From Parcubacteria group bacterium ADurb.Bin192 (GTDB taxonomy: Bacteria > Patescibacteriota > Patescibacteriia > 2-12-FULL-60-25): a stretch of DNA of 64,000 nucleotides. Each line of letters begins with the position of its first letter. Position 1 is the first letter of the stretch. Made by a program: the position numbers and the translations under genes. Positions 14,827-24,082 of this stretch are shown one piece after another. The DNA lies in the NCBI GenBank assembly GCA_002070095.1, contig MWCR01000001.1, forward strand, positions 1 through 64,000. The letters run 5' to 3'. The notes beneath the pieces are model-generated. The model saw nothing but the letters and a program-made list of their open reading frames with translations. It was not told the DNA's origin and made no database searches.

Positions 14827-16239
14827 ATGAAATATAAATATTTATTTGTTTTAGCGGCCGCTTGCTTGTTCGCCACCCAGGCTCAAGCGGCTACTTTATC
14901 CCCCGGGGATTTGATCAAAGCCTCGGGCCCGGCTGTTTATTATTACAGCCAAGAAGGCAAGCGTTTGGTTTTCCCCAACGAAAACACATACAAGACTTGG
15001 TACACGGATTTTTCAACAGTCAAAACCATCACAGACGCCGAACTGGCCGCCATCACCATGGGCGGCAATGTCACTTATAAGCCGGGTGTGCGCTTGGTCA
15101 AAATCGTGAGCGACTCAAAAGTTTACGCCATAGCGGCCGGCGGAGTTTTGCGGCACGTGGCCACCGAGGAAATCGCCAGAAATTTATACGGCGCTGATTG
15201 GAACACCAAAGTCGATGATATACCGGTTGGTTTTTTCTCCAATTATTCGATCGGCTCCTCCATCCTGAATTCGACCGACTATTCTCCTTCTGCCAGCACC
15301 GCACAGGCGGTCAGTATTGATACGGACCGCGCGGCCAAAACCACTCCGCCCGTATGCACCACCTGCGGATCCGAACCGGTTACACCGACCACCACCCAAG
15401 AAACGATCCAAATTGCTTTGTCCGCTTCACAAAACACAATCAAGATAAACGACGTGATAACCTTTACGGCTTCAGCTCAATACTCTGCCAGCATTAAAGA
15501 AATTCGCATTTATTTTGATAACAATCTGGTAACCGCTTGCCAAAATGCCAATGTCTGCTCCGGCGATTTTGCCATGCCCTCGGTTTTGGATAAAGAAACA
15601 TACCAAGTAAAAACCGAAGTAACCGCGCTGGATACAACCAAAGAAACCAAGACCTTGGATCTGGCCCGCGCCAGCACCACCGAACCGGATTCTGAAGTCA
15701 CTATTTCGGTGGACAGAGAAGTAATCGAACCCGGACAAACAACCGGCATCACCGTGCAAGCCGATGAAACGGTTGATGTGAAAGAAATCATCATTTATGT
15801 GGATGATGTGGCCAAAAAAGGCTGTAACTATTTGGGACGATCGTGCAAATGGAGCCAAATATTTGATGGTCCTTTGGGGACGGAATTTAATACCTACGGC
15901 CTTGTGACCAGTGTTTCGGGTGTTACTTACCGTACACAAACCAAAACCATCACCCTGGCTGCCAACAGCATCCCCTATGTCACAATTGAAACCGGCAAGA
16001 CTTATATTCTAAAAGGCGAAAGTATGGAAGCGGTGGTCAGCGCTTCGGATGAAGACGGTATTCAATCTATCGAAATACTGGACAGCCAGAAAAACGTGCT
16101 CAAAACTTGTTCGGGTGCCGCTCCCTGCACTTTATCCACCGGACCATGGGTGACCGAAGGCATGGTTACTCTTTGGGGCAGAGCTACGGATGTACCCGGA
16201 TCATCCAATGAACAATCCATCCAGTTTGAGGTTAGATGA
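14827..16239 (+). CDS. Exported protein with a YYY/GKR-FPN domain and Ig-like repeats
   Basis: 470 residues. A signal peptide (KYLFVLAAACLFATQAQA, cleavage near residue 22) is followed by a domain of about 125 residues: GDLIKASGPAVYYYSQEGKR, FPNENTYKTWY, GGNVTYKPG, an LRHV block and DIPVGFFSNYSIG. The same domain recurs in 16311-17102 and 22493-24082. A Thr-rich linker (about 158-195) leads to three beta-sandwich-like repeats of roughly 90 residues, each with paired Cys (CQNANVC, CNYLGRSC, CSGAAPC) and starting with patterns such as IKINDVITFTASAQ, typical of Ig/CARDB-like surface modules. It is likely cell-surface or secreted. The next gene encodes a paralog of the first domain, so they probably work together at the envelope. 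Confidence 0.7.
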   Translation: MKYKYLFVLAAACLFATQAQAATLSPGDLIKASGPAVYYYSQEGKRLVFPNENTYKTWYTDFSTVKTITDAELAAITMGGNVTYKPGVRLVKIVSDSKVYAIAAGGVLRHVATEEIARNLYGADWNTKVDDIPVGFFSNYSIGSSILNSTDYSPSASTAQAVSIDTDRAAKTTPPVCTTCGSEPVTPTTTQETIQIALSASQNTIKINDVITFTASAQYSASIKEIRIYFDNNLVTACQNANVCSGDFAMPSVLDKETYQVKTEVTALDTTKETKTLDLARASTTEPDSEVTISVDREVIEPGQTTGITVQADETVDVKEIIIYVDDVAKKGCNYLGRSCKWSQIFDGPLGTEFNTYGLVTSVSGVTYRTQTKTITLAANSIPYVTIETGKTYILKGESMEAVVSASDEDGIQSIEILDSQKNVLKTCSGAAPCTLSTGPWVTEGMVTLWGRATDVPGSSNEQSIQFEVR

Positions 16240-16310
16240 TCACATTGACTCGCTTATTCATTCATGACATTAATTAATGTCTGAACTAATCATTAATTTT
16301 TTTACTCTTT

Positions 16311-17102
16311 ATGTTTAAAAAATTAGCTTCACTCATGGCCACCGGTGCTTTGGTAGCCTCAACTTTAATGCCGGCCACCGCTTCGGCCGCCGTTACCCGG
16401 TCTTTTAATCCCGGATCTTTAATCAAAGGCTCCGGTCCGACCGTGTATTATTACGCGGAAGACGGCAAGAGATACGTATTCCCCAACGAAAAAACCTATT
16501 TCACCTGGTACGAAAATTTCGACACCGTGATCCAAATCCCGGACAACATGTTGTCCACTCTGCCCTTGGGCAAAAACGTGACTTACCGCCCGGGCAAAAA
16601 AATGGTCAAAATCACCACTGATCCCAGAGTTTATGTGGTTGACCGTGGCGGCATGCTAAGGCACGTGGACAGCGAGGAGATCGCCAAAACCTTATACAAT
16701 ATTAACTGGGCCAACCAAATCGACGATGTACCGGACAGCTTTTTCACCAACTACAAAGTCGGCAACAAGGTTGAATCAGCCAGCGAATACAGACCGGCGG
16801 ACGTGATGGCCGGAACCACCACCATCTCGCAAGACAAAGGCTTTGACGACACCATGGCCGCCATCTCCATCGGCAATACCATGACCGGCTTCGTGCCCAA
16901 CAGCATGACCATTAAAAAAGGCACGACCGTTACCTGGACCAACCAGGACAGTGCTTCTCATAGCGTGATCGGTACAGGCTTCCAATCAGATGCCTTGGGC
17001 TACAACAAATCATACAATTTCAAATTCAACACCGTGGGTTCGTTCGAATACAAGGATGGCATCAATCCATCCATCACGGCCACTATCCACGTGGTGCAAT
17101 AA
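16311..17102 (+). CDS. Exported protein: YYY/GKR-FPN domain fused to a ligand-less cupredoxin fold
   Basis: 263 residues. Signal peptide to about residue 27 (ASLMATGALVASTLMPATASA). Residues 33-160 repeat the domain of the preceding gene: GSLIKGSGPTVYYYAEDGKR, VFPNEKTYFTWY, GKNVTYRPG, LRHVDSEEIA, DVPDSFFTNYKVG. Residues 185-263 match plastocyanin-like cupredoxins (FVPNSMTIKKGTTVTWTNQD, SHSV, FNTVGSFEY...TATIHV). The copper site is damaged: His in SHSV remains, but the Y-H-C-x-x-H-P-x-M block reads YKDGINPSI, so Cys, His and Met are gone. Electron transfer is therefore unlikely; a binding or structural role is inferred. A terminator follows and serves both strands. Confidence 0.72.
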   Translation: MFKKLASLMATGALVASTLMPATASAAVTRSFNPGSLIKGSGPTVYYYAEDGKRYVFPNEKTYFTWYENFDTVIQIPDNMLSTLPLGKNVTYRPGKKMVKITTDPRVYVVDRGGMLRHVDSEEIAKTLYNINWANQIDDVPDSFFTNYKVGNKVESASEYRPADVMAGTTTISQDKGFDDTMAAISIGNTMTGFVPNSMTIKKGTTVTWTNQDSASHSVIGTGFQSDALGYNKSYNFKFNTVGSFEYKDGINPSITATIHVVQ

Positions 17103-17114
17103 GTTTTTAACATT

Positions 17115-17147
17115 AAAAAATCCCGTCATCAGACGGGATTTTTTTTA
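17115..17147. terminator. Shared bidirectional terminator
   Basis: AAAAAATCCCGTC-ATCA-GACGGGATTTTTT, a perfect 8-base GC stem flanked by A and T runs; it ends the plus-strand 16311 gene and overlaps the stop of the minus-strand 17129 gene. Confidence 0.85.
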
Positions 17148-18487
17148 TATATTTCAGGAACGCATTTGCCATTATTACAAATCCAGTCAACATAAGAATC
17201 TTTATATCTGATACGGACTATACCCTCGCGCGGCTGTACGTATTCAGGGGTGTCTAATAACAAATTATTCAAATTTTCGGGAATCAATTCGTTTTTTGCT
17301 TCAAAAGAAATCATGCGAGCGGGCGAAGTCAGCGCTTTATAAAGTGATTCTTGAGAAAAGAGGGATACGTCTCCATATTCTATGACATCTAAGGGTCTGC
17401 GGCCTTGCCAATCGTTAAAAACTTCAATAATGAAAGGGTCAGGATTTTTAAAATGTGTAATATCAATAACAATCGGTTCTTTATCATCTGCTACCGCTAC
17501 GGCTTCAGCGTCACGCCGCATGTCGATAGCCTCTGAAATACTTATTTTATCTTTCTCAAGATGCGGCATTTCCCAAAGTCCAACCTCTATTATTTTAGAC
17601 TCTACACGCTTAACCGGAGCCGGATTCTCCAGACGATGATCATCAACTTCACCGCTATAAGCCCGCAAGGAACTTTTAGAGCGCGGTCCGGCCAAAAATG
17701 AATCAGTCACGAAACGAGTGGGCGAATTTTTATCATAGTCTCCAGGCTCTGGAGCCATGGGCTCGGATTGAATACCCGCATAATTCTCCAGCCAGCGCCA
17801 AACCGGATATTTAAGAGTACCGGCCCATCCACCTTGAACCATGGGATTAACACCGCCCTCCATGGGATAATCAACTCCGTTCAAATTAACCACTATTCTT
17901 TTATGGTCTCCAAAATCCTGAACCATGGACGCGGACTTGATATTTAACTCTTGCAAAGCAATAGCATAAGCCTTGGATCTGGCTTCACAATTTCCCTGAC
18001 CATCATTCAACAAATCAATAACCATGCTTTTAGTGGCGCTCCACTCCCCTCCGAACTGATGGACTATTTCATGAAGGAATCCCCTTTCATCCAACTCGGG
18101 TTGAACTGAACGTAAATATGCAAGTTTTTGATCTAAAACTCTTTCAGCTTTTTGACATTCTACGGCGCTAAAAGAACGTGAGCATTCAGCGTCTAAAAAA
18201 GTACGCCGCAAATTAATCCTTTCGGGTTCCCTTGCCAATTCAGAATACAATTTCTGTCTAACACTCCGCTCTTTGAACTCATCACGATGGACTGACCTGA
18301 CGTAATTTCTAACAGCGACCTCAATAGCCTCTCCTGTAAGCCGAGCGCCCTCGGTGACTTCGTGTTTGATTTCAGGCACCAGCGGCGCATGCAAAACAGC
18401 GGCCACGGCCAATGTTTTGGCCAGAGCGGGAATTTTTCTTTTTTTGGGTTCTTCGTGACTTGGTACGAAACGCGCGATTTCAGACAT
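17129..18487 (-). CDS. Protein with a transglutaminase-like core, possibly membrane associated
   Basis: 452 residues from ATG 18487 (a TTG 15 bases upstream is possible). TATACT lies six bases before this ATG, so the message is probably leaderless. After a basic stretch (KKRKIPALAK) there is a short hydrophobic segment (LAVAAVLHAPLV). Near residues 165-215 the order GQGNCEARSKAYAIAL ... GDHKRIVVNLNGVDYPME gives the Cys, His and Asp arrangement of transglutaminase-like proteases. The C-terminal half (residues 250-452) is Asp/Glu rich without recognised domain. Members of this fold act as amidases, peptidases or cross-linkers; which applies is unknown. It diverges from the transketolase gene across about 65 bases. 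Confidence 0.55.
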   Translation of the reverse strand: MSEIARFVPSHEEPKKRKIPALAKTLAVAAVLHAPLVPEIKHEVTEGARLTGEAIEVAVRNYVRSVHRDEFKERSVRQKLYSELAREPERINLRRTFLDAECSRSFSAVECQKAERVLDQKLAYLRSVQPELDERGFLHEIVHQFGGEWSATKSMVIDLLNDGQGNCEARSKAYAIALQELNIKSASMVQDFGDHKRIVVNLNGVDYPMEGGVNPMVQGGWAGTLKYPVWRWLENYAGIQSEPMAPEPGDYDKNSPTRFVTDSFLAGPRSKSSLRAYSGEVDDHRLENPAPVKRVESKIIEVGLWEMPHLEKDKISISEAIDMRRDAEAVAVADDKEPIVIDITHFKNPDPFIIEVFNDWQGRRPLDVIEYGDVSLFSQESLYKALTSPARMISFEAKNELIPENLNNLLLDTPEYVQPREGIVRIRYKDSYVDWICNNGKCVPEIYKKNPV

Positions 18488-18514
18488 ACGGATAGTATAC
18501 AACTTAAACGTATT

Positions 18515-18543
18515 TTTTCACACGCAAACCATTGTGCTACAAT
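18515..18543 (+). promoter_or_regulatory. Promoter of the split transketolase operon
   Basis: TTTTCA, 17-base spacer ending TGTGC, TACAAT (18538-18543), ten bases before ATG 18554; no Shine-Dalgarno. The divergent TATACT of the 17129 gene is at 18494-18499. Confidence 0.55.
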
Positions 18544-18553
18544 CACTTTCAGT

Positions 18554-19471
18554 ATGCCAAAAACAATCAAACAGCTGGAAAAAATCGCCAACGCTATCCG
18601 GCAGGACATTATCAAAATGCTGGTGACAGCCGGATCCGGGCACTCGGCCGGACCATTGGGCATGGCCGATGTTTTCACGGCTTTATATTTTGGCGGGGTG
18701 GCCAAGCTGGATCCCAAAAAACGCCAAGATCCTGAACGCGACCGAATGGTTTTGTCCAACGCCCACATTTGTCCGGTTTTATACTCCGCCTTGGCCCACC
18801 GGGGTTATTTCCCAAAATCAGAACTCAAAACCTTGCGCCGGCTGGGCAGTAAATTACAAGGGCACTCCAATAATCACGCCAACATCGGCATAGAAACCAG
18901 CGGCGGACCCTTGGGCCAGGGACTATCCCAAGCCGTGGGCCTGGCCCTGGCCGCTCGCATGAACAAAAACCAGCACATCAAGACCGCATCTTCGGTTGGC
19001 AGACGTGGGACGATTGCGACGAGCGACGCGGGACGTGATTACCACACCTGGTGCGTGATGAGCGATGGCGAATTTGACGAAGGTCAGACCTGGGAAGCCT
19101 TGATGCTGGCCGGCAAATTGGATTTGCGCGAAGTAACGATTTTAATCGACCGGAACAATATTCAGATAGACGGCTTCACCGAACAAGTCATGCCTTTGGA
19201 AAATTTTTCAGACAAACTAAAAGCTTTCAATTGGTTTGTGATAGAAGTTGACGGCCACAATATCCGTGAAGTTTTGGATGCCATGAAAAAGGCCAAGGCC
19301 ATGGCCGCCAATCCGACCGCCATCGTCTGCCACACCATCCCGGGCAAGGGCGTTGATTTTATGGAAAACAAGTTTGAATGGCACGGCAAGCCGCCCTCTC
19401 CAACAGAAGCTCGTCTGGCCCTGCATGAGTTGCGAACTTTTGGCGGAAAAATTAAATGCGAACACGAATAA
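18554..19471 (+). CDS. Transketolase, N-terminal (thiamine-diphosphate) subunit
   Basis: 305 residues. The ThDP-binding motif is CVMSDGEFDEGQTWEA...LIDRNNIQIDG (G-D-G replaced by S-D-G-E as in split enzymes), with GHSAGPLGMADVFTALYF near the N-terminus and SGGPLGQGLSQAVGLAL before it. The partner subunit follows four bases after the stop, and together they equal one full-length transketolase, the arrangement seen in archaea and many CPR bacteria. They transfer two-carbon ketol units between pentose and triose/hexose phosphates. Residues around 150-162 (GRRGTIATSDAGRDYH) are an extra loop encoded by the ACG-type heptamer repeat, just before the ThDP motif. It is plausibly tolerated as a surface loop. 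Confidence 0.93.
   Translation: MPKTIKQLEKIANAIRQDIIKMLVTAGSGHSAGPLGMADVFTALYFGGVAKLDPKKRQDPERDRMVLSNAHICPVLYSALAHRGYFPKSELKTLRRLGSKLQGHSNNHANIGIETSGGPLGQGLSQAVGLALAARMNKNQHIKTASSVGRRGTIATSDAGRDYHTWCVMSDGEFDEGQTWEALMLAGKLDLREVTILIDRNNIQIDGFTEQVMPLENFSDKLKAFNWFVIEVDGHNIREVLDAMKKAKAMAANPTAIVCHTIPGKGVDFMENKFEWHGKPPSPTEARLALHELRTFGGKIKCEHE
19001..19037 (+). repeat. ACGNRGG heptamer tract inside the transketolase N-subunit gene
   Basis: Units ACGTGGG, ACGATTGCG, ACGAGCG, ACGCGGG, ACGTGAT read in frame as RRGTIATSDAGRD. Confidence 0.75.
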
Positions 19472-19475
19472 ACAT

Positions 19476-20453
19476 ATGAAAGCAGTTAAACTTAGTGATT
19501 TTTGGATGCATAAAACCGTGGAAAAACGCCCCACGCGCGACGGCTACGGCCAAGCTCTGCTCGAACTGGGAGAAAGCAACCCGGACGTGGTGGTACTGAC
19601 CGGTGATTTGGCCGAGTCCACCCGAGCCTTGCCGTTTGGCGAAAAATATCCGGAACGTTTTATCGAATGCGGGGTAGCCGAGCAAAACATGATGGGCGTG
19701 GCCGCGGGCTTGGCCTTGGGCGGTAAAATCCCTTTCATCTCATCGTACGCCGTGTTTTCACCGGGACGCAGTTGGGATCAGTTGAGAGTTTCGGTTTGCT
19801 ATGCCAAAGCCAACGTCAAAATCGCGGGCGCGCACACGGGCATCAGTGTAGGCCCGGACGGAGCTACGCACCAAGCCCTGGAAGACATGGCCATCACGCG
19901 CGTCATTCCCGATCTGATCGTCATGGCGCCGTGCGACGCGGAAGAAACCAGAAAGTGCACTTTGGCGGCCGCGAATTATCAAGGGCCCGTCTATTTTAGA
20001 TTCGCGCGCGAAAAAACGCCGGTCATGACCGTTAAACAAACCCCTTTTGAAATCGGCCAAGCCTATGTTTGCCGCGAAGGCTATGATGTGACTTTGATGG
20101 CGGCCGGACCTCTGCTCCACGCGGCCTTGATGGCCGCCGAAAAACTAGCGGCCAAAGGCATAGAAGCCGAGGTCATCAACAGTCACACCATTAAACCGCT
20201 GGACACCAAAACCATTTTGCAATCCGTTAAAAAGACGCGTTGCGCTGTGACCGTGGAAGAACATCAAATAACCGGCGGATTATTCGGCGCGGTTGCTGAA
20301 GCTTTAGCTAAAACCTATCCGGTTCCTCTGGAAGCCGTGGGCATGCATGACACTTTTGGCGAGTCAGGCACACCGGACGAACTGCTGGCCAAATACAAAA
20401 TGACCGATACCGATGTCTTTAAAGCAGCTCTTAAAGCCATTAAGAGAAAATAA
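19476..20453 (+). CDS. Transketolase, C-terminal (pyrimidine-binding) subunit
   Basis: 325 residues. Blocks typical of the PYR and C-terminal domains are VVVLTGDLAESTRA, FIECGVAEQNMMGVAAGLA (with the catalytic Glu contacting ThDP), GAHTGISVGPDGATHQALEDMA and VTVEEHQITGGLFGAVAEAL. It completes the enzyme with the upstream subunit, from which it is separated by four bases. Its expected pathway partners rpiB and rpe are 4-5 kb upstream. A small gene of unknown function starts two bases after it. No separate promoter is visible, consistent with one transcript. Confidence 0.95.
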   Translation: MKAVKLSDFWMHKTVEKRPTRDGYGQALLELGESNPDVVVLTGDLAESTRALPFGEKYPERFIECGVAEQNMMGVAAGLALGGKIPFISSYAVFSPGRSWDQLRVSVCYAKANVKIAGAHTGISVGPDGATHQALEDMAITRVIPDLIVMAPCDAEETRKCTLAAANYQGPVYFRFAREKTPVMTVKQTPFEIGQAYVCREGYDVTLMAAGPLLHAALMAAEKLAAKGIEAEVINSHTIKPLDTKTILQSVKKTRCAVTVEEHQITGGLFGAVAEALAKTYPVPLEAVGMHDTFGESGTPDELLAKYKMTDTDVFKAALKAIKRK

Positions 20454-20455
20454 TT

Positions 20456-20965
20456 ATGCGACCTGACGATCCTCTTAAACAGTGCCGGATTATAAGCCCT
20501 GAAGAAATCTCGGCCCTGCAATCCAAGGCCAAAGAACTGGGTCTGCATTCCGAAAAACAGACCGGACCCACGCCCGATAAACCAAAACCCGAAACTCCGG
20601 AGCAAAAACTGAAAAAAGAAATGAGCCAGACCCTCAATGCCCTGGATGGTATTTTAAAAATGAAAATACAGACCTCCGCTTCCAGGCTAAACTCCATGCA
20701 AAGACCGGCCATGCTCAAAAGACAAGGCGAATTCGTGAATTATCCCAAATTCAGCAAAGAGCAAATCGAATCCGTGGAAGACCAAATATTGGGTTATAAA
20801 ATGCAAAGCGAGTGCCTGACCCAAGCTGTTCAAGCATTAAACAATGAACAAGCACCGCCCCCGGATTTAATGCAAACCTTGCAACTGCTTAAAAAAGAAC
20901 TGGAACACGATCCGGATCTGGTCAAACAAATCCGCGCCCTGCAAATTAATCTGGGCGCCATGTAA
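20456..20965 (+). CDS. Small protein of unknown function, helical, 169 aa
   Basis: Not recognised. It begins two bases after the transketolase C-subunit and so belongs to that operon. The sequence is soluble and strongly helical: a Pro/Lys-rich stretch (residues 30-55), then a long amphipathic region (55-165) with KKEMSQTLNALDGILKMK and LLKKELEHDPDLVKQIRALQ, likely coiled coil. Two Cys only, no membrane segment. A clean terminator follows at 20966. Any role in sugar-phosphate metabolism is only suggested by position. Confidence 0.6.
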   Translation: MRPDDPLKQCRIISPEEISALQSKAKELGLHSEKQTGPTPDKPKPETPEQKLKKEMSQTLNALDGILKMKIQTSASRLNSMQRPAMLKRQGEFVNYPKFSKEQIESVEDQILGYKMQSECLTQAVQALNNEQAPPPDLMQTLQLLKKELEHDPDLVKQIRALQINLGAM

Positions 20966-20990
20966 ATCGAGCTTACGGCTCGATTTTTTT
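20966..20990 (+). terminator. Terminator of the transketolase operon
   Basis: ATCGAGC-TTACG-GCTCGAT stem followed by TTTTTTT. Confidence 0.85.
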
Positions 20991-21021
20991 AGATTAGAGC
21001 TTTGATGTTATACTGATGCAT

Positions 21022-21996
21022 ATGCCTCAAAAATTTGACATCGTGTGTATCGGAGAATCATTGCGCGATATTTTTTATATCATCAACGAAGCCACGGTCA
21101 GCTGTTCGCTCAATAAAGATCATTGCCAGCTGTGCTTGGAATACGCGGAAAAAATACCGGTCAAAGAAGTGGTCAAAGTGCCGGCCGCCGGCAATTCGGC
21201 CAATGCCGCGGTCAGTGCCGCGCGTTTGGGTTTTAAAAGCGCGCTTATCAGCTGGGTGGGTGATGATCCGGAAGGACAAGATATTCGAAAGTCGCTAAAA
21301 GCCGACGGTGTGAATACCAAATTGCTTTGCAGCTGCGGAGGACAAGAGACCAGCGAAGCCACTCTGCTGAGCTTTCAGGGTGAACGCACTCAATTATTGT
21401 ATTTCAAAAAAAGAAAATACACGTTGCATGATTTTCCGGATGCCGCCTGTTATTATTATTCGGCCATGGGCCATGGGCATGAAAAATTTGACCAAGCATT
21501 GATTAAAAAATTAAAAGCCAAAGCAAATTTATTTTTTGTTTTTCAGCCCGGCACCACTCACATCAGATCCGGTTTAAAAAAAATATCTCCTTTGATTGCC
21601 CTAAGTTCACTTTTTATTTTGAACAAAGACGAAGCTCATATCTTGTTGGGCAACGGCGAAAGAACCACGGTCAATCTGTTGGACGCTTTTCATAAACTCG
21701 GAGCCAAACAAGTCATCATCACGGACAGCAAAAACGGGGCTGATGCTTTTGACGGACAAAAATACTGGCACATGCCGATCTTTCCGGGCAAGGCCATAGA
21801 GAGCACGGGTGCGGGCGATGCTTTTGCCATTGGAGTAACCTGCGCTTGGCTGAATAAAAAAAATCCGGCCGAAGCCCTGCGCTGGGGCACGGCCAATGCC
21901 TGGTCCGTGGTCCAACAAATCGGCCCGCAGGCCGGCTTGCTTAAAAAAGCCGACATGCCAAAAGTCCTAAAAAAATTCAACCGGATCCAACCCTAG
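21022..21996 (+). CDS. PfkB/ribokinase-family carbohydrate kinase
   Basis: 324 residues from ATG 21022 (ATG 21016 also possible; TATACT at 21009-21014 favours the second). Family signatures: AAGNSANAAVSAARLGFKSALI near the N-terminus and STGAGDAFAIGVTCAWL near residue 255, the latter holding the catalytic Asp and anion hole. Between residues 24 and 41 it has a Cys-rich insertion (CSLNKDHCQLCLEYAEK), unusual for the family and possibly metal binding. It phosphorylates a sugar or nucleoside with ATP; the substrate is not readable. A second paralog at 29496-30512 carries a similar insertion region without the Cys cluster. Confidence 0.88.
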   Translation: MPQKFDIVCIGESLRDIFYIINEATVSCSLNKDHCQLCLEYAEKIPVKEVVKVPAAGNSANAAVSAARLGFKSALISWVGDDPEGQDIRKSLKADGVNTKLLCSCGGQETSEATLLSFQGERTQLLYFKKRKYTLHDFPDAACYYYSAMGHGHEKFDQALIKKLKAKANLFFVFQPGTTHIRSGLKKISPLIALSSLFILNKDEAHILLGNGERTTVNLLDAFHKLGAKQVIITDSKNGADAFDGQKYWHMPIFPGKAIESTGAGDAFAIGVTCAWLNKKNPAEALRWGTANAWSVVQQIGPQAGLLKKADMPKVLKKFNRIQP

Positions 21997-22066
21997 GAAA
22001 TAGTTTAAATTGGGCTAAAAACAAGGTTTTTCAGACAACATTAGCCAGACTATAACTGCTTTAGCA

Positions 22067-22095
22067 TTGACAAAAAGCATTTTTTGTGCTATATT
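22067..22095 (+). promoter_or_regulatory. Promoter of the 22200-24082 gene pair
   Basis: TTGACA, 17-base spacer ending TTGTGC, TATATT at 22090-22095, an extended -10. The leader is about 100 bases. Confidence 0.75.
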
Positions 22096-22199
22096 TAGCG
22101 GTTTATTGATGACTTTGAGTCTTGATGCGAGTCCGCTGACTACACGTGAATTTGCCTCAAAACTCAAACCCAACAGTCCTTTGACAAAGGAGAAGGATT

Positions 22200-22478
22200 T
22201 TGAACAAGCGGCAAGCCAAGACTCTGTGCTGGCAGGTGGTTTTGTTCTGTTTGGTCGGTATCGCGGTGAACGCGACGGCCAACTACCTACTCAAGCAGTG
22301 GGCAGAAGACCGCCGGCCGGCTGAACCTGTCTGGGTGCGCACGCGCCTGGGCGAGACCGAAGAACTCATCCCGGTGTGGCAGATGTGCCCGGTCATTCCG
22401 GAGTCACTCTGCAACACCAAACTCACACCCGCCCACAACGCGCCGGCCGCCACCACGGACGGACGCATTGAACTCTGA
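22200..22478 (+). CDS. Small single-pass membrane protein, TTG start
   Basis: 92 residues. The start is TTG 22200, set by a perfect AAAGGAG (22186-22192) seven bases upstream. A short basic head (MNKRQAK) precedes one hydrophobic helix (residues 11-30, VVLFCLVGIAVNATANYLL), then about 60 polar residues with two Cys (CPVIPESLC) that should lie outside, so it is a type II-like anchored peptide. No family recognised. It sits 14 bases before the lipoprotein gene and shares its promoter, so the two products probably act together at the cell surface. Confidence 0.6.
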   Translation: MNKRQAKTLCWQVVLFCLVGIAVNATANYLLKQWAEDRRPAEPVWVRTRLGETEELIPVWQMCPVIPESLCNTKLTPAHNAPAATTDGRIEL

Positions 22479-22492
22479 ACCGAAGGAGAATA

Positions 22493-24082
22493 ATGATGAA
22501 GAAGTTTTTTGCGGTTTTGATCGCTTGCGCATTGACCATGGGTTGCGGAGGCGAGCCGGACCACACCACTTTGGAATTCTATGAAGGACCGGAGAAGTGC
22601 GTGCCCGGCGAACACAAGGCCTGCTGGTGCGACGGCGTAACGGGTTTCCAGCAGTGCCGCGAAGACGGGATGGCCTTCATGCACTGCCAGTGCCCGCCAA
22701 AGGTGGAGGAGCCGGTAGAAGACGCCGGTACGGAAGCGCCGGAAGAAGCGGGCGCGGATGTCGGAGTAAACTTGCTCCGCGTCTGGCTGGCAGACGAACC
22801 GCAAGGCGGAGAAGTCCGGCCCGGAGAAAAAAACGTCCCGGTTCTAGGGCTGAACCTGCAAGCCCTACAGACCCCAGGCGACGTGAACATCCGAGTCATC
22901 AGCTTGGGTTGCCGAGCCAGCTTGAACGGGCAAGAGTACGCCGACACTGATTGTTGGCGCCGCGTCCGGGAAATCGAAGTCCTGGATGAGGACGGCCGGC
23001 AGATCGCGCCGCCTGATTCACCGGACATGGTGGCCGGAAAAGTCTACCTGCTGGTGGACTACACGGTGAAGCGAGGCGAAACCCGCAATCTGCTGGTGCG
23101 CGCCAGCTTCAACGACGAAGCATCAACCGAAGAACCCTACGACAGGGTGAGCTTCGACCTGGTACCGACCATCAACGCGGACCAAGGTATCGAAACGGAT
23201 GGCACAACGGTGGTCGTGGGTCATGGCTTCGGCCTTGGTCAACAGGGCGACGAACCCAAGGTGGAGTTCAAGATTGTGCCCGAAGACGACACAGAATGTA
23301 CGACCGACGATGATTGCGCGCAGTTCAATACCGCGTGCATGACTTTCGGTTGTTTGCAGGGTCTTTGCTTCGAAACAGAGGACACCTGCGCCGGCACGAG
23401 CGCTGAGTACTGCGAACTGATGACAGGTATCATGGTCTACGGGTACTACGGTTGTTGCGGCACGTTCAGCAAGGGCGACGTCACCCAACTCAAAACGGGT
23501 GATCTCATCAAAGCTAGCGGCAGTGGCAATTACCAGGTCTATTACTACGGCAGTAATGGAAAACGTTACCTGTTTCCTTCCTCCGTGGAACTGGACTCCT
23601 GGTACGCTCCCCTGAACATGAATGGCGTTCCGGTACACGACTCCAACGGGGTCTGCAACAATGTACTGGAAATCCCAGAGGCCCAGCTGGTACAGATCCC
23701 CACCGGAGGAAACGTCACCAAACGTCCCGGTGCCTACAGCACCGGCATCTACGTCGACATGCAGCGCTACGTCGTAGATCACTACCGGATACTGCGGCCC
23801 GTATCACAAGCTGTTCTGGACGAAATCTACGACGGCCCCATGCAAGAGCACGATTTCATCACGCCTGACATGTTCTTCGTGAACTATGTCATGGGTTCGC
23901 CGCTAACCAATGCTAACGAATTCGACCATTTGGTGAAGTACAACACCGCTATGATCGAGGTCGAACTTGGCATCAAGTCCTGCTACCCAGGGACATACGT
24001 ATATTGCGAATGCGGAGATGGCACGCCAAGCCAAACACTCTGCAACGTAAGCTACGAACCGCTGGATTGTGTGTGCAACTAA
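22493..24082 (+). CDS. Cys-rich lipoprotein with the YYY/GKR-FPN domain
   Basis: 529 residues. The signal ends ACALTMGCGG, a lipobox-like site with Cys at about 18. Residues 30-60 carry a CVPGEHKACWCDGVTG motif; residues 75-250 form a beta-rich domain (VNLLRVWLADEP...VLVDYTVKRGET); residues 255-300 hold CTTDDDCAQFNTACM...GLC, a pattern common in Myxococcota surface lipoproteins. Residues 330-480 contain the domain shared with 14827 and 16311 (GDLIKASGSG, VYYYGSNGKRYLFPS, GGNVTKRPG, FFVNYVMGSP). A Cys-rich tail (CYPGTYVYCECGDG) repeats the N-terminal Cys module. SD-led (AAGGAG) and GC-rich. It may be a recent fusion between imported lipoprotein modules and a native domain. Confidence 0.7.
   Translation: MMKKFFAVLIACALTMGCGGEPDHTTLEFYEGPEKCVPGEHKACWCDGVTGFQQCREDGMAFMHCQCPPKVEEPVEDAGTEAPEEAGADVGVNLLRVWLADEPQGGEVRPGEKNVPVLGLNLQALQTPGDVNIRVISLGCRASLNGQEYADTDCWRRVREIEVLDEDGRQIAPPDSPDMVAGKVYLLVDYTVKRGETRNLLVRASFNDEASTEEPYDRVSFDLVPTINADQGIETDGTTVVVGHGFGLGQQGDEPKVEFKIVPEDDTECTTDDDCAQFNTACMTFGCLQGLCFETEDTCAGTSAEYCELMTGIMVYGYYGCCGTFSKGDVTQLKTGDLIKASGSGNYQVYYYGSNGKRYLFPSSVELDSWYAPLNMNGVPVHDSNGVCNNVLEIPEAQLVQIPTGGNVTKRPGAYSTGIYVDMQRYVVDHYRILRPVSQAVLDEIYDGPMQEHDFITPDMFFVNYVMGSPLTNANEFDHLVKYNTAMIEVELGIKSCYPGTYVYCECGDGTPSQTLCNVSYEPLDCVCN

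Follow-up and report, generated by a model that had tools for sequence, protein, structure and literature searches.

Introduction

S-layer homology (SLH) modules contain three repeats each. Such short repeats (PF00395) are found terminally in S-layer proteins and in other proteins of the cell surface. Within the Patescibacteria (Candidate Phyla Radiation, CPR), whose envelope building is described in one account as unclear (PMC5220378), Strigamonas carries 10 and 8 SLH genes in two metagenome-assembled genomes (PMC13059738). A second described repeat belongs to EccB, a protein of actinobacterial type VII secretion (PF05108, TIGR03919) that has a single transmembrane helix and a core domain surrounded by four repeats, and whose gene neighbours belong to the type VII secretion system. 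The R-repeats of EccB1 (3x3n) are four-stranded sheets with two helices and are reported to resemble PlyCB, the wall-binding subunit of the phage lysin PlyC (PMC4769845). Here we examine an unnamed module that recurs in three exported proteins encoded between positions 14,827 and 24,082 of a 64,000-nucleotide stretch of contig MWCR01000001.1 (the window) from Parcubacteria group bacterium ADurb.Bin192, a member of the class Patescibacteriia whose genome comprises 1.44 Mb in 69 contigs. The module consists of tandem ~58-residue units akin to EccB repeats, and its sequence and distribution suggest as its most likely role that of fixing surface proteins to the cell wall, a probable S-layer protein among them.

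Results

The module recurs in three window proteins and elsewhere in the genome

A sequence-only reading of the window had proposed a shared module with different partners in the genes at 14827, 16311 and 22493. All three are open reading frames on the + strand, and a search of the host's own genome with the 14827 copy as sole query links them, giving 52% identity (E=1e-44) to the 16311 copy and 37% identity (E=1.2e-11) to the 22493 copy. The partners indeed differ, being Ig-like repeats of the Big_7 family, a cupredoxin domain and, in the 22493 protein with its 26 Cys, a Cys-rich part. The same search found three further close copies beyond the window, on contigs C5, C4 and C1, and a profile search added a seventh, weak place (C2:36758) in a protein with four units of the module kind, so that the genome-wide count stands at six close copies and one weak one. 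The features are as follows.

14827..16239, + strand: 470-aa exported protein with signal peptide, tandem-unit module and Big_7 Ig-like repeats (open reading frame; Big_7 E=5e-5)
14905..15075, + strand: module unit 1 of the 14827 protein (match to single-unit profile A5)
15094..15264, + strand: module unit 2 of the 14827 protein, ends approximate (A5 unit, residues 93-149 of the L235 frame)
16311..17102, + strand: 263-aa exported protein with signal peptide, tandem-unit module and a cupredoxin domain without three of the four type-1 copper ligands (open reading frame; predicted structure; ligand alignment)
16413..16583, + strand: module unit 1 of the 16311 protein (A5 match; predicted strands (E) and helices E37-39, E45-48, E54-56, helix 60-66, E73-75, helix 78-83, E86-89)
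16602..16772, + strand: module unit 2 of the 16311 protein, with approximate bounds modelled on 14827 (predicted E98-101, E107-111, E115-119, helix 122-129, E137-140, helix 142-145)
22493..24082, + strand: 529-aa exported protein, Cys-rich and lipoprotein-like, whose C-terminal half contains a divergent module copy (open reading frame; 26 Cys; GC 0.568)
23498..23920, + strand: the divergent module copy of the 22493 protein (E=1.2e-11 with the 14827 copy alone as query)
C5:39075-39440: module copy at the N-terminus of a 1300-aa protein (own-genome search)
C4:2483-2842: C-terminal module copy of a 284-aa protein, preceded by a Big_1 domain (own-genome search)
C1:161661-161996: module copy at the N-terminus of a 333-aa protein (own-genome search)
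L219:206-1654 (own genome, contig C2): 482-aa exported protein in which an unclassified N-terminal domain precedes four units (relatives L203, L206, L226, L231, L242, L245, L249)

Because the similarity covers the full ~125 residues and 14 columns are invariant across the six close copies, it is not a product of low complexity, an objection that had been raised in advance. Close relatives in named collections come from Candidatus Uhrbacteria and other Patescibacteria, which GTDB has grouped as class ABY1.

The module consists of tandem units

The module is a real and so far unnamed arrangement in which a ~58-residue unit occurs in tandem, rather than one domain, with two copies per module, or three in proteins of ~1,300 residues. 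This make-up, the relationship to EccB and a ~1300-residue probable S-layer protein with the same N-terminal module go beyond the sequence-only reading. With high confidence, AlphaFold predicts the element order βββαβα(β) for the unit: the model of the 16311 protein with 37 relatives (pLDDT 91, pTM 0.82) runs strand-strand-strand-helix-strand-helix-strand, and the order then repeats up to the second helix. The 419 N-terminal residues of L094, a relative of the 1300-aa type, show the element order three times (pLDDT 86, pTM 0.47), and a third unit was seen by eye directly behind the module in 25 of the 34 proteins of at least 1100 aa.

The kinship of the units was established through a generic unit profile built from 11 units of three proteins without the standard module (L203, L205 and L206). 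This profile matches units 1 and 3 in many module proteins (best reversed decoy E=1.8), and four divergent members (L198, L200, L201, L202) also give a clear match at unit 2. In full-length profile-profile comparison, unit 1 aligns with the generic unit at prob 97.7 and a score of 56.8 (maximum of 60 shuffles, 20.9), and unit 2 at prob 93.9 and a score of 36.5 (maximum of 60 shuffles, 15.4). Since both halves match the generic unit, they represent one kind of unit in tandem, with strong divergence between the first copy and the second. The rows returned by VIA-align were taken up by partner domains (residues 197-351 and 179-263), so that the module fold was barely tested there and the absence of a family from those rows carries no meaning.

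The unit is related to the R-repeats of EccB

Profile alignments show homology between the unit and the EccB R-repeats. A profile of 26 units, compared with one of 11 EccB proteins from actinobacterial plasmids, gave three full-length alignments, to EccB 419-483, 89-143 and 202-258, with scores of 38.0, 36.8 and 30.8 (prob 85, 83 and 53); the best of 100 column shuffles reached 15.9 and the reversed profile 14.0. From the published repeat ranges of EccB1 (R1 74-124, R2 185-241, R4 391-445; PMC4769845), the three regions would correspond to R4, R1 and R2. The generic profile, drawn from non-module proteins, aligned with EccB at a score of 40.4 (best of 60 shuffles, 15.6). Curated EccB models also detect Patescibacteria repeat proteins below their cut-offs, TIGR03919 at E=2e-4 (L203) and PF05108 at E=1.1e-4 (L231), and as whole-protein models (PF05108/TIGR03919) they match none of the window proteins, the best scores among relatives being 21.5 of 27 and 20.3 of 154 bits. 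The module shares with EccB the unit length and a sequence pattern over three repeats, and the predicted strand and helix make-up may be alike as well. Unlike EccB, with its transmembrane helix and four repeats around a core domain, module proteins carry two or three head-to-tail units on secreted surface proteins. Any likeness to PlyCB is second-hand, by way of the resemblance reported for EccB1 repeats (PMC4769845).

The earlier judgement that the family is unnamed stands, as profile searches returned no Pfam, NCBIfam or PHROGs match above cut-off, and sequence and profile searches of the PDB gave no sequence match to the module. Among candidates set aside, AstE_AspA_hybrid (PF04952) scored 13.7-15.5 bits against a cut-off of 25 bits for 14827 and 16311, without consistent coverage; NdhS and other sub-threshold Pfam rows were likewise inconsistent in coverage; antibody heavy chains from the PDB profile search reflect chance likeness over short VYY-like stretches; and PHROGs rows were scattered, with E=0.016 at best. 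A plasmid tblastn with the module consensus gave seven chance rows (best E=4), and one with four-unit arrays found no match. In phage tblastn the four-unit arrays returned eight records (H68-H75) from Streptomyces and Rhodococcus phages at E 4e-5 to 4e-3, with stretches that resemble about two of the four units. No description of the module or of EccB-like repeats in Patescibacteria was found in the titles and abstract openings listed by searches of open-licence PMC articles. On these comparisons the module is a new, unnamed arrangement of the EccB-type repeat that is neither a member of the SLH family nor an EccB protein.

The module stands mostly at the N-terminus of secreted proteins with varied partners

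Architecture was surveyed in 148 non-redundant module proteins from the fetched loci and the window, with signal peptides called by a crude rule. A signal-peptide-like start is present in 135 of them, and the module lies within 60 residues of the N-terminus in 104 of 106 complete proteins; it lies within 30 residues of the C-terminus in eight, mostly module-only proteins of ~180 residues. The proteins fall into size classes of ~180 (module alone), ~265 (cupredoxin), ~470 (Ig-like) and 1150-1600 residues, and all 34 proteins of at least 1100 aa start with the module. These partner classes give strong support to the mix-and-match of module and partner suggested from the window alone. Units beyond the standard module form C-terminal arrays of three to seven, with the following partners.

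L237, outside the host's class: SpoIID (PF08486 E=6e-12) and PA14, then seven units
L234: GH123
L205: Fn3-like domains
L203, L206 and own-genome L219: an unclassified N-terminal domain

A phmmer search of the PDB with the N-terminal domain of the four-unit protein was without match; to the eye, with no model support, the domain of L203, L206 and L219 may be lysozyme- or lytic-transglycosylase-like.

Module genes of the Ig-like and the cupredoxin class lie next to each other as a conserved pair, as at 14827-17102 in the window. Among 24 complete ~470-residue proteins from named collections (L042-L121), 19 are directly followed by a module gene of cupredoxin size, one more lies at a contig end and five are preceded by a module-alone gene. 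The cupredoxin domain of the 16311 protein superimposes on 5fc9 (Z 14.9, rmsd 1.0, 81 aligned) and retains only the first His of the type-1 copper ligands (His, Cys, His, Met); all four are present in just 10 of 38 aligned proteins, which indicates that copper binding has been lost in many.

Several observations concern individual members. The domain that opens the body of the S-layer-like protein L094 (L094:4992-6248, model residues 205-350) is similar to the beta-sandwich at the N-terminus of Bacteroides-type sialidases (Z 11.4, rmsd 2.8, 130 aligned). In the 16311 protein and its relatives, across several partner classes, the module is followed by a short linker with the conserved pattern, roughly, of [S/T]-I-x-x-D-K-G. 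The gene at 22493-24082 has a GC content of 0.568, against 0.49 +/- 0.06 in background genes, encodes 26 Cys and shows low codon similarity to ribosomal genes, a combination that suggests it was possibly acquired. The partner of the module in its product had been described as Cys-rich lipoprotein modules: the Cys-rich character holds, and the lipobox, read by eye as LTMGC, is non-canonical. Some module matches are interrupted in frame by a stop codon or two, TAA or TGA (L132, L133, G417, G026, G449), and are either decayed copies or assembly errors.

The module is widespread in the class and shares no sampled genome with SLH

Every one of the 41 genomes searched in the host's order (which here equals its family) has the module, and each of them gives 3 to 13 matches. 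When the host's class was sampled evenly, 104 of 144 genomes, from 92 of 127 genera, had it. An even phylum sample has it in 65 of 379 genomes: 32 of the 33 class members and 33 of the 346 others, for which E=6e-11 is the best value reached. The single unit is more widely spread in that sample (99 of 379 genomes; all 33 class members and 66 of the 346 others), and some families have at least 17 matches per genome. Among 26 class genomes with a single match, it falls in 13 within an open reading frame of at least 1200 residues (one of these, G240, with a second weak match), three are generic proteins of three to four units with weak E-values, and several appear cut near contig ends.

SLH (PF00395) was found in none of the 144 class genomes, the host's own included, in a profile search whose control was positive in 4 of 14. 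In the phylum sample, 41 of 379 genomes have SLH. Unit and SLH occur together in one genome (G132) against 10.7 expected (p=5e-5), and module and SLH in none against 7.0 expected (p=6e-4), both statistics ignoring kinship. As with the module proteins, the SLH surface proteins of Strigamonas and Absconditicoccus number several per genome and share one common anchoring-type module, which is SLH in those lineages and consists of EccB-like units in the host's class. Because other lineages of Patescibacteria use SLH (PMC13059738 and the phylum sample), the phylum seems to contain two ways of anchoring surface proteins.

Discussion

We consider it probable that the module is a non-covalent cell-wall anchor for exported proteins, including an S-layer-like one, which does an SLH-like job with EccB-type tandem units. 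A Sec signal would take the protein out of the cell, two or three units would bind the wall non-covalently, through peptidoglycan or a wall-bound glycan, and the C-terminal partner, be it an S-layer body, Ig-like, cupredoxin or Cys-rich, would be displayed outward. In the host's class the module would in this way anchor an S-layer-like protein of ~1,150-1,600 residues together with smaller surface proteins, doing the job of SLH domains in other lineages. The large protein has the profile of an S-layer candidate, being secreted, widespread in the lineage and equipped with an anchoring-type module at one end, and the three-unit form on this largest, lineage-wide secreted protein suggests S-layer anchoring, as with SLH triplets elsewhere. 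The module and SLH would thus be alike in their likely job and in forming a terminal set of several short repeats on surface proteins, those of the S-layer included, and they share no similarity by profile. The suggestion that this is an anchoring module, made from the window alone, has become the best-supported reading, and what now speaks for it is the homology to EccB repeats, the architecture and the taxonomic distribution.

Several results weigh against this interpretation or limit it. In codon usage, taken as a proxy for high expression, the S-layer candidate ranks third of 60 by log-likelihood, against a background that holds a fragment of the same gene and with a weak ribosomal bias. 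The profile finds no module in 40 of the 144 class genomes. Counted by family, the avoidance between unit and SLH loses significance (2 families shared against 4.6 expected, p=0.15), in a test that assumes 152 families taken from labels. A direct profile comparison of unit 1 with unit 2 is likewise not significant (score 12.3, shuffle maximum 24.5), and their kinship follows from the generic unit as intermediate and from the repeat in predicted structure. On the side of EccB, a hidden Markov model of Patescibacteria-only units finds 4 of 11 EccB proteins at E<1e-3 (best 1.6e-6; best reversed decoy 0.56), three of the four from Streptomyces, and in a mycobacterial plasmid of 453 open reading frames every E-value was 8 or worse, its own EccB included (E=12 to 15 where listed). 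Foldseek placed EccB1 (3x3n) at rank 21 for the 1300-aa-type model, with prob 0.94 and an rmsd of 23.6 over 264 columns, which taken alone may be a weak hint of kinship. Peptidoglycan binding by EccB was, according to its authors, proposed without data (PMC4769845).

As an alternative, the module could dock protein to protein, tying surface proteins together or into the S-layer lattice instead of holding them to a wall polymer, and such docking would suit the presence of the module on many different exported proteins of one genome, the existence of module-only secreted proteins of ~180 aa, and EccB1, whose repeats pack R1/R4, R2/R3 and on the core domain and for which a structural role has also been suggested (PMC4769845). 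We nevertheless consider docking unlikely, since the S-layer-like protein itself has the module at its N-terminus, so that the lattice receptor would have to be something else, and since the fusion to SpoIID, a wall-lytic domain, in L237 points to the wall. Less probable still is an episymbiont adhesin whose units bind glycans outside the cell's own wall, such as host or environmental polysaccharide or biofilm. GH123, Laminin_G_3, PA14 and Fn3-like domains among the partners of other repeat proteins would fit such a role, and Patescibacteria are inferred to be episymbionts (PMC13059738), yet a module that follows the signal peptide in 104 of 106 proteins, with variable partners C-terminal to it, fits an anchor better than the distal tip of an adhesin. 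Placement near the signal peptide would also be expected of an export or folding element, an intramolecular chaperone or sorting signal without a ligand. This we regard as very improbable, as generic-family units stand C-terminally behind other domains in their arrays, which would be unusual for a sorting signal, and two copies of the host's own genome (22493 and C4) also lie in the C-terminal half.

Wall anchoring remains the reading we prefer, and it allows a broader and more doubtful proposal, to which we give somewhat less than an even chance: that the EccB-type modules of the class are a lineage-wide stand-in for SLH, holding the S-layer and other surface proteins, and that EccB shares with them an ancient wall-binding repeat. 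A defined wall-anchor unit would allow surface proteins to be predicted in many uncultured genomes and would provide a concrete S-layer candidate for the host's class. It would also make the unproven grip of the EccB repeat on peptidoglycan testable on small, soluble modules.

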